Shown here one piece after another: positions 1,878 through 34,613 of a stretch of 40,080 bases of DNA. The notes under the pieces were generated by a model, which was not told the origin of the DNA, did no database searches, and saw only the letters and a program-made list of their open reading frames with translations. Each line of letters begins with the position of its first letter. The first letter of the stretch is position 1. The DNA is from an uncultured Alphaproteobacteria bacterium (lineage in GTDB: Bacteria > Pseudomonadota > Alphaproteobacteria > Caulobacterales > Caulobacteraceae): contig CAIYZB010000246.1 of assembly GCA_903930545.1 (NCBI GenBank), positions 1 through 40,080 of the forward strand, written 5' to 3'. A program made the position numbers and the translations under genes.

Positions 1878-1937
1878 TCAGAGGGAGCTTTTGAGGCCCA
1901 GACGCGGGAGGTCGCACAGATTGATGACAGCCGTCAT
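1878..1937 (-). CDS. 19-residue leader-type small ORF
   Basis: Too short for the ORF track. The minus strand reads AAGGAGGT, five bases, then ATG and the peptide MTAVINLCDLPRLGLKSSL followed by TGA. The ribosome binding site is an essentially perfect anti-16S match and much stronger than those of neighbouring genes, which is the main argument for translation. The ORF ends 98 bases before the ABC exporter start on the same strand. The peptide has no signal or membrane segment and I recognise no family. Its start codon and ribosome binding site are both inside a nested inverted repeat (1902-1956). By analogy with leader peptides of other ABC exporters it may regulate the gene behind it; that is inference. 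Alternatively it is a free-standing small protein. Confidence 0.6.
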   Translation of the reverse strand: MTAVINLCDLPRLGLKSSL

Positions 1938-1956
1938 ATTGGACCTCCTTTCGCGT
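1902..1956 (-). promoter_or_regulatory. Nested hairpin covering the small-ORF ribosome binding site and start
   Basis: Read on the minus strand, ACGCG-aaa-GGAGGTC pairs with GACCTCC-CGCGT, a 12-bp stem with a three-base bulge. Inside it ATGAC pairs with GTCAT across a GGCT loop. The first arm is the ribosome binding site itself, and the inner stem contains the ATG. In the folded state translation of the small ORF would be blocked. The opposite strand folds equally well and is followed by only TTT, so a weak plus-strand terminator is a less likely reading. Confidence 0.55.
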
Positions 1957-2069: not shown

Positions 2070-3002
2070 ATGACCGAGATTCTGCCAGACGCCCTCCCGA
2101 CCAACTGGGTCGACCGCCATGCCCCTGTGGCCCTGCAGCCCTGGCTGAAGCTGGGTCGCTTTGACCGGCCAGCCGGGATCTGGCTGCTGATGTTGCCCGG
2201 CTGGTGGGGGGTGGCGCTTGCCGGTGCGAGCCGGGGCAATGGTCCGGATCTGGTCCTGCTGATCAAGATCTTCGTCGGGGCGGCCCTGATGCGGGCAGCG
2301 GGCTGTGCCTTCAACGATATCGTCGATCGCGACTTCGATGCCCAGGTGGCCCGAACGGCCATGCGCCCCATTCCATCAGGCCAGATCACCGTGCCCCAGG
2401 CCTGGGCCTTCCTTTTGGGATGCTGCCTGATCTCCTTCGGCATCCTGGTCACCCTGCCCCTTTTCGCCATCGCTCTGGGGGTCGGGTCCCTGGCCCTTGT
2501 GGCAGCCTATCCCTTCATGAAGCGCATCACCTGGTGGCCCCAGGCCTGGCTGGGCCTGACCTTCAACTGGGGCATACTGCTGGGCTATGCGGCAGCCACC
2601 GGCCACCTGGAGGCCCCTGCCCTTGTGCTCTATGCCGCGGCCGTCTTCTGGACCCTGGGCTATGACACCATCTATGCGGTCCAGGACCTTGAGGACGATG
2701 CCCTGGCCGGGGTGAAGTCCTCGGCCCTGAGGCTGGGAGACAAGGCCCCCCGCGCCGTTCTGGGCTTCTATGTCCTGGCCTTCACCCTGGCCCTGACCGC
2801 CGCCGCCATGGCCTATCTCGGACCCCTCTTCCTGCCGCCAGCGGCCCTGTTCGGCCTGCACCTGTCGCGTCAGGCGGCCGCTCTGGACATTCGCGACGGG
2901 GCCGGAGCCCTGGCCCTGTTCAAGTCCAACAGCCTGGCCGGTTTGTTGATGTTTGTTGCCCTGGTCGCCGGGTTCTGGCGCGGCCCTGTGGGCATGTTCT
3001 GA
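2070..3002 (+). CDS. ubiA: 4-hydroxybenzoate polyprenyltransferase
   Basis: Integral membrane prenyltransferase that attaches the polyprenyl tail to 4-hydroxybenzoate in ubiquinone synthesis. The two family Asp-rich motifs that bind Mg-diphosphate are present: NDIVDRDFD near residues 82-90 and YDTIYAVQDLEDD near 198-210. They lie among about eight or nine hydrophobic segments. At 310 residues it has the normal length. The ATG at 2070 is preceded by GAAGG at suitable spacing. ubiD lies about 3.6 kb downstream on the same strand, separated by unrelated genes, so two steps of one pathway are loosely clustered. Confidence 0.95.
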   Translation: MTEILPDALPTNWVDRHAPVALQPWLKLGRFDRPAGIWLLMLPGWWGVALAGASRGNGPDLVLLIKIFVGAALMRAAGCAFNDIVDRDFDAQVARTAMRPIPSGQITVPQAWAFLLGCCLISFGILVTLPLFAIALGVGSLALVAAYPFMKRITWWPQAWLGLTFNWGILLGYAAATGHLEAPALVLYAAAVFWTLGYDTIYAVQDLEDDALAGVKSSALRLGDKAPRAVLGFYVLAFTLALTAAAMAYLGPLFLPPAALFGLHLSRQAAALDIRDGAGALALFKSNSLAGLLMFVALVAGFWRGPVGMF

Positions 3003-33375: not shown

Positions 33376-34613
33376 CAGTCGAGGATCCGGGTATCCGGCG
33401 AGGCCGTGACAAACCGGCCGCCCCACTCGGAGATATAGGCCAGCTGGCCCATGATCTCGTCCTTCAGATTCCAGGGCATGATGACCAGATAGTCCGGACG
33501 GATCTCCGCGACCTTTGACGGGGCATGGATCGGGATATGGCTGCCCGGCAGGAAACGGTCCTGCTTGTGGGGATTGGCATCAAAGGAGGCGACGATGTCA
33601 TCCGTTCCCACCCCGCAATAGTTGAGGAAGGTATTGCCCTTGGCCGCAGCACCATAGGCCGCAACCTTCTTCCCCTCGGCCCGGGCCTTGGCCAGGAACT
33701 TCAGGAAGTCGGCGCGCACTGCCTCGACCCGGGCGGTGAAGCCGCCATAGGTGGCCAGGGTGCCGAGACCGGCCTGGGCCTCGCGATCGCGAAGGGTGAC
33801 CAGGGCCTGGGTCTCCACATGATCCGAACCCTGATGGGCGCAGAACAGGCGCAGGGATCCCCCATGGGTGGGAAGTAGTTCAACATCGAACGGTCTCAGA
33901 CCATTGGCCCGCAGCACCCGCTCCACCGCCAGCAGGGACAGGTAGGAATAGTGCTCATGATAGATGGTGTCGAACTGGACCAGCTCGATCAGGTTCAGCA
34001 GGTGGGGGAATTCAAAGGTCAGGACCCCTTGCGGCTTCAGCACATGCTGAAAGCCTGCCACAAAGCCGTCGATGTCCGGCACATGGGCCAGGACATTGTT
34101 GCCGGCCATGAGATCCGCCGCGATCCCTCGGGCCTTGAGGCTGCGCCCCGTCTCGTCATTGAAGAAGGCGACCTCGGTGGGCACCCCGATCTTCACCGCC
34201 GCCTCGGCCGTATTGGCCGTGGGCTCGATTCCCAGAACCGGAATGCCAGCCTTGTGGAAATGCTGCAGCAGATAGCCGTCATTGGAGGCCACCTCGATCA
34301 CCAGGGACTGGGGCCCGAGCCCCCAGCGCGCGGTCATGGCCTCGGCATAGCGTTTGGCGTGGGCGACCCAGCTCTCCGAATAGGAGGAGAAATAGGCATA
34401 GCCCTCATCAAAGATCTCGTCGGCGGCGACGGGATCATCGGCCTGAACCAGGAAACAGCTGGGGCAGACACGGGCATGGAGGGGGTAGGCCTTCTCGGTC
34501 CCGGCCGCGAGCTGGGCGGGGGTCAGATAGGCATTGGCCAGGGGCTGGTCCCCGAGATCGATGAAATCCTGGGTCAGGGGCGTCTTGCAAAAACGGCAAT
34601 TGGGTACGGTCAT
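33375..34613 (-). CDS. Sugar C-methyltransferase (TylC3/TcaB9 type)
   Basis: 412 residues from ATG 34613. The N-terminal zinc site is built from C6xxC9 and C50xxC53. The SAM domain has EVASNDGYLLQHF at 106-118. DTIYHEHYSYLS carries the Glu-His pair (219-220) that is catalytic in TcaB9. The C-terminal domain has AAYGAAAKGNTFLNYC, as in the Methyltransf_14 family. Known members add a methyl to C3 of a 4-keto-6-deoxy nucleotide sugar, giving branched sugars. This gene is the best clue to the operon's product. ATGA overlap with rfbG. Confidence 0.92.
   Translation of the reverse strand: MTVPNCRFCKTPLTQDFIDLGDQPLANAYLTPAQLAAGTEKAYPLHARVCPSCFLVQADDPVAADEIFDEGYAYFSSYSESWVAHAKRYAEAMTARWGLGPQSLVIEVASNDGYLLQHFHKAGIPVLGIEPTANTAEAAVKIGVPTEVAFFNDETGRSLKARGIAADLMAGNNVLAHVPDIDGFVAGFQHVLKPQGVLTFEFPHLLNLIELVQFDTIYHEHYSYLSLLAVERVLRANGLRPFDVELLPTHGGSLRLFCAHQGSDHVETQALVTLRDREAQAGLGTLATYGGFTARVEAVRADFLKFLAKARAEGKKVAAYGAAAKGNTFLNYCGVGTDDIVASFDANPHKQDRFLPGSHIPIHAPSKVAEIRPDYLVIMPWNLKDEIMGQLAYISEWGGRFVTASPDTRILD

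Follow-up and report, generated by a model that had tools for sequence, protein, structure and literature searches.

A short leader ORF with a strong ribosome binding site is a putative conserved control element upstream of an ABC exporter in Phenylobacterium

A 19-codon ORF (uORF) lies upstream of an ABC exporter gene in the DNA of an uncultured Caulobacteraceae bacterium. The question raised by this locus is whether the small ORF controls the exporter or is a chance pairing of a ribosome binding site and a short reading frame. The whole stretch of 40,080 nucleotides is called the window below, and its features are on the minus strand unless stated otherwise. The Shine-Dalgarno (SD) sequence AAGGAGGT was found at 1943-1950, 5 nt upstream of the ATG (1937-1935). 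The uORF, MTAVINLCDLPRLGLKSSL, occupies 1878-1937 as 19 codons and TGA, and 98 nt separate the TGA from the exporter start at 1779. The arrangement given in a preliminary description, i.e., SD, five bases, ATG and a 19-residue ORF on the strand that leads into the exporter, was thus confirmed. The exporter (1-1779, running off the window) carries the Pfam domains ABC_tran and ABC_membrane. It is a half-transporter of the B family, its Walker A, signature and Walker B motifs all being intact, and no cut-off of the NCBIfam models was reached. No evident SD precedes its start, and the same applies to the exporter starts of relatives. The ubiA prenyltransferase gene (PF01040, plus strand, 2070-3002) is the divergent neighbor and marks the orthologous locus. 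A promoter was read from the sequence and the pattern in orthologs, with the -35 element TTGACG at 1999-2004 and, 17 bp away, the -10 element TAGCCT at 1976-1981, from which the uORF ATG is 38 nt downstream. The TAGCCT element was left unscored in a scan with a generic consensus promoter.

The window sequence alone would make a weak case for function. The pattern AAGGAGGT-N4-9-ATG occurs once, against 0.07 occurrences expected. The SD and the ATG are placed in a nested hairpin (P0, 1903-1955), in which the SD pairs with codons 9-12 and the ATG is in an inner 5-bp stem, AUGAC/GUCAU. This hairpin, reported in the preliminary description, is the minimum-energy fold, but its stability is ordinary: the z-scores are -1.27 and -1.13, and equal stability was reached by 18 and 27 of 200 shuffled sequences. 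The closest DNA match to the window leader was 26 bases long, and none longer was found. No leader or riboswitch family of Rfam matched the window at the gathering score. A second strong SD-ATG, AAGGAGGCGACGATG, is located at 33583-33597 of the plus strand and opens an 8-codon ORF, MSSVPTPQ.

The comparison with relatives gave a stronger picture. The window genome belongs to Phenylobacterium. The exporter was sought in 101 genomes of this genus, and the upstream DNA was read for most matches, with duplicates removed. In 61 distinct Phenylobacterium exporter leaders, a uORF 17-21 codons long, preceded by a strong SD, was found at the orthologous position, 146-280 nt 5' of the exporter. Because of this conservation the leader ORF stands above chance, and it is read here, from sequence comparison, as a putative conserved control element of Phenylobacterium. 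The promoter was conserved as TTGAC-N17/18-TA (TTGAC-N17-TAGCYT type) in 56 of the 61 leaders, 54 of them with a spacing of 17, and its position is fixed at 31-44 nt 5' of the uORF ATG. At loci divergent from ubiA, the uORF was present in 49 of 57 by a strict rule, and in approximately 54 when variant SDs or GTG starts were counted. Among the eight that failed the rule, AAAGGGGGG replaces the SD ahead of the uORF in four (L075, L185, L186, and L188), the uORF of L177 starts with GTG, and that of L015 is frame-broken. Exporter pairs located away from ubiA (L002-L005 and L157-L162) showed no uORF. The leader therefore belongs to the ubiA-exporter promoter. At five loci where the pair lies away from ubiA (L002-L005 and L009), a strong GC hairpin of the GGGTCCGTG ctccc CACGGGCCC type was seen right before the exporter.

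Of the 22 genera of the family, 15 have exporter orthologs. Outside Phenylobacterium, a comparable uORF was found at only two (L214 and L228) of 40 sampled exporter loci. In the largest other genus (L193-L206 and L229-L231), the uORF is lacking ahead of many exporter orthologs, and a -10-like CCTATCTA lies directly 5' of their start codon. Since this element abuts the ATG, the exporter mRNA of that genus is probably leaderless or nearly so. A different small ORF was observed in one genus of another Caulobacterales family (L085, L087, L089, and L233-L240). This 4-codon ORF, ATGAYTGANNAYTGACACGGGGC (MTEY*, MIEN*, MTDY*), follows an SD-like purine stretch and occurs once per genome in eight genomes, all of that genus. 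It is conserved in the exporter-ortholog leaders L085, L087, and L089, where a G-rich/C-rich hairpin candidate then follows.

The uORF peptides share a position rather than a sequence. PPP was found near the end of 28 of the 61 uORFs, in two large classes of tails, i.e., (R)(L/F)GPPP(H/P)R-like or FAGPPPRF-like. The remaining tails were LRRRAAGSSC, PHRCVAATRT, VARPRF, RKPERQGR and SKPQV. The peptide of the window is unique, and its tail PRLGLKSSL has a single proline (in LPRLG) and no PPP; this copy counts as a diverged member of the group. Among loci of the PPP class, ATG and PPP are separated by lengths that differ by multiples of three, and at 28 of 29 loci the PPP codons are in frame. The kept frame is strong evidence for translation of the uORF, which we infer from it. 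The exception (L015, genome G024) kept the PPP leader as RNA, with a model match of E 2.7e-5, and its uORF is frameshifted after a run of six C, through a genuine break or a sequencing error in the homopolymer. The uORF position was clearly conserved among relatives, but the peptide itself was only weakly so. The peptide body of the PPP class showed pN/pS of approximately 1.0, no different from shifted frames, and the other classes ranged from 0.45 to 2.6, with 0.45-0.55 in three smaller groups and 2.6 in one group with few changes. Purifying selection on the peptide was rejected as a general feature, with values below 1 in some subgroups only. For the same reason, sequence-specific sensing of the nascent chain is not generally supported. 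The proline run that ends the uORF in many relatives suggests that a pausing ribosome may decide whether the drug-type pump is made.

The PPP class shares a conserved RNA structure. There, GGGCCGC from the Gly-Pro-Pro-Pro codons forms a helix (P1) with GYGGYCC approximately 80-90 nt downstream, and P1 encloses a GCUUCG/CGAAGC hairpin just 3' of the uORF stop (P2). Both helices were recovered unprompted by RNAalifold from an alignment of a 21-sequence subset, as MAFFT/RNAalifold on full leaders was poor owing to insertions. The covariation score was 0.107 versus 0.076 in shuffled alignments (0/500) and at most 0.077 when the helices were slid, and most P1 pairs either do not vary or differ in a single partner (GC to GU). 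GGGCCGCCGCCG was fixed as nucleotides, beyond the constancy of the amino acids. A covariance model of the PPP-class leader (R1) matched 29 of 299 family genomes, once in each; all 29 were Phenylobacterium, and the window genome was not among them. P1 is confined to the PPP class and is absent from the other leader classes. In the window, a possible reduced P1/P2 hairpin (GGGCC/GGCCC and AGCUC/GAGCU) was folded around the uORF stop at 1865-1899; it is a weak candidate, with pairing of 0.30 versus 0.23 in shuffled sequences. The pairing of the SD with the uORF body was above the codon-shuffled control across orthologs (0.87 versus 0.69, Wilcoxon p 5e-8, the sequences not being independent), but the window copy alone was not (1.00 versus 0.88, rank 0.20). 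The nested SD hairpin was accordingly rejected as the chief conserved feature; it is partly conserved with moderate ortholog support and is not the strongest feature.

A stretch richer in C than in G follows the uORF in all leader classes, window included. In the window it covers 1790-1867, where C minus G is 27% in 78 nt. This is the 99.96th percentile among all 78-nt stretches of the window and the top value among 10 upstream intergenic regions. Across the 61 leaders, the stretch was at the 99.8th percentile on average, and 49 of 61 were above the 95% value of random segments. The stretch is rut-like, but stretches of comparable skew also lie within coding sequence of the window, so the skew alone is no proof of a rut site. 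No terminator-like site was found in a search for intrinsic terminators at 1700-2150 of the window, and no U-run hairpin was apparent in the leaders of relatives read by eye. When the uORF end was blocked in silico, mean accessibility of the exporter start was 0.53 versus 0.53 in the PPP class and 0.53 versus 0.52 in the rest, by equilibrium folding only. This unchanged predicted access gives no support to a refolding onto the exporter start.

The locus has the general trait of leader-ORF attenuators, i.e., a short ORF with a ribosome binding site between promoter and exporter, conserved in position. By sequence, the best reading is that it would work like such an attenuator, nearer to mgtL/mgtP, CruR and TnaC than to BmrB or erm. 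TnaC resembles it in having a short leader ORF and then a rut-like region before the regulated gene, whereas the tryptophan-sensing residues of TnaC are absent here. A ribosome stalled on the TnaC leader ORF is reported to shield from Rho the rut region preceding the regulated genes (PMC5021804). The mgtL and mgtP ORFs of Salmonella mgtA and mgtCBR lie early in a leader of approximately 260 nt ahead of a transporter; proline codons, three consecutive in mgtP, slow the ribosome, and attenuation is Rho-dependent for mgtA (PMC6460261, PMC5021804). The uORF is of similar size, also ahead of a transporter, and has clustered prolines in the 28 leaders with PPP. However, the transporter is another one, the sequence is unrelated, the prolines are at the C-terminal end, and the window copy has one proline. 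For the CruR uORF of Bordetella (DUF2946), the C>G skew was used to place the rut site and a proline motif is employed (PMC9426467). A similar rut-like region is found 3' of the leader ORF here, but CruR is a protein of more than 140 residues with a signal peptide and a CXXC copper sensor, neither of which is present in this uORF, and the RAPP and CXXC motifs were absent from the 61 leader peptides.

The preliminary description had compared the locus with BmrB, whose coding region contains both an intrinsic terminator and an anti-terminator ahead of BmrCD in Bacillus subtilis (PMC4191407). A leader ORF upstream of an ABC multidrug-type exporter is indeed shared, but the analogy is loose, because no counterpart of the BmrB intrinsic terminator was found here. 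The erm-type trait, i.e., a stalled ribosome freeing a downstream start, was not seen in equilibrium folding. Membership of any named family is not established; the defining features of BmrB and CruR were looked for and not found, and the proline feature is present in orthologs and absent from the window copy.

One alternative would be attenuation of translation as in erm, or anti-termination like that of BmrB, in which a ribosome stalled in the uORF would rearrange the leader fold so that the exporter start is freed or an intrinsic terminator is blocked. The PPP codons lie within a helix and an exporter is downstream, as in BmrCD, but blocking the uORF end did not change the mean predicted access to the exporter start, the window leader has no detected intrinsic terminator, and no SD that could be sequestered is evident at exporter starts, so that this mechanism is rather unlikely. 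Similarly doubtful is the reading of the RNA itself as the sensor, a riboswitch or protein-binding leader, on which the uORF merely holds ribosomes or reports general translation. It would agree with the covarying P1/P2, the nucleotide-level fixation of GGGCCGCCGCCG and the freely varying peptide body. However, P1 is found only in the PPP class while the uORF, the SD and the C>G stretch persist without it, PPP stays in frame at 28 of 29 loci, and the window gave no Rfam match.

It is also conceivable, though less probable than either of these, that the uORF encodes a functional small protein acting in trans, i.e., an exporter partner, an exported peptide or an inhibitor. The peptides are short, basic, often proline-rich and adjoin the exporter, and pN/pS is 0.45-0.55 in three subgroups. 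Against this, they diverged beyond recognition within one genus, pN/pS is near 1 in the largest class, and the peptide is missing where the exporter sits elsewhere. A functionless chance SD with a short ORF would suit the unremarkable fold energy and the unique peptide of the window, but it is very improbable given that promoter, SD and short ORF are co-located in 61 orthologous leaders with position and frame conserved.

The best explanation, held at about an even chance, is that the uORF is a translated cis-acting leader ORF, the first on the exporter mRNA, which would control the exporter by ribosome-dependent and probably Rho-dependent attenuation. The preliminary suggestion of a stalling or attenuation leader fared well in part: the leader ORF is well supported by orthologs and attenuation is plausible from the 28 PPP tails and the rut-like region, but release of the exporter start was not seen in folding. 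What the sequences show is a promoter, an SD, a uORF and a C>G stretch that are all conserved at a single locus, with P1/P2 conserved in the PPP class; translation of the uORF, stalling, action of Rho and a signal are what we infer from them. A ribosome would load at the strong SD, partly held in the hairpin, and translate the uORF to its stop. In approximately half of the relatives, it would meet Gly-Pro-Pro-Pro a few codons before the stop. Since these codons form one strand of a hairpin, ribosome position would be directly coupled to RNA structure in the PPP class. The position and dwell time of the ribosome may set the fate of the C-rich, G-poor leader, which would be terminated when open to Rho and read through into the exporter when covered or refolded. 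Stalling on the uORF could shift exporter expression either up or down. Given the C>G stretch together with polyproline near the stop, features that act in this way in known systems (PMC6460261, PMC5021804, PMC9426467), the simplest model is Rho-dependent attenuation set by the ribosome on the uORF.

A bolder and rather doubtful proposal is that the C-terminal Gly-Pro-Pro-Pro arrest codons double as a strand of the control hairpin. Stalling sensitive to EF-P would then gate the access of Rho, and hence the exporter, genus-wide, with the peptide otherwise free to vary. Such an arrest could resemble the action of apidaecin, a proline-rich peptide acting at termination. No paper on a Phenylobacterium leader peptide was found in searches of the open-access literature. 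If the attenuation reading is true, the locus would represent a new conserved leader-ORF family for Caulobacterales, in which an ABC exporter is tied to translation status. Since polyproline is naturally present in some copies of this locus and lacking in others, the roles of the stalling motif, the RNA helix and Rho would then be separable.
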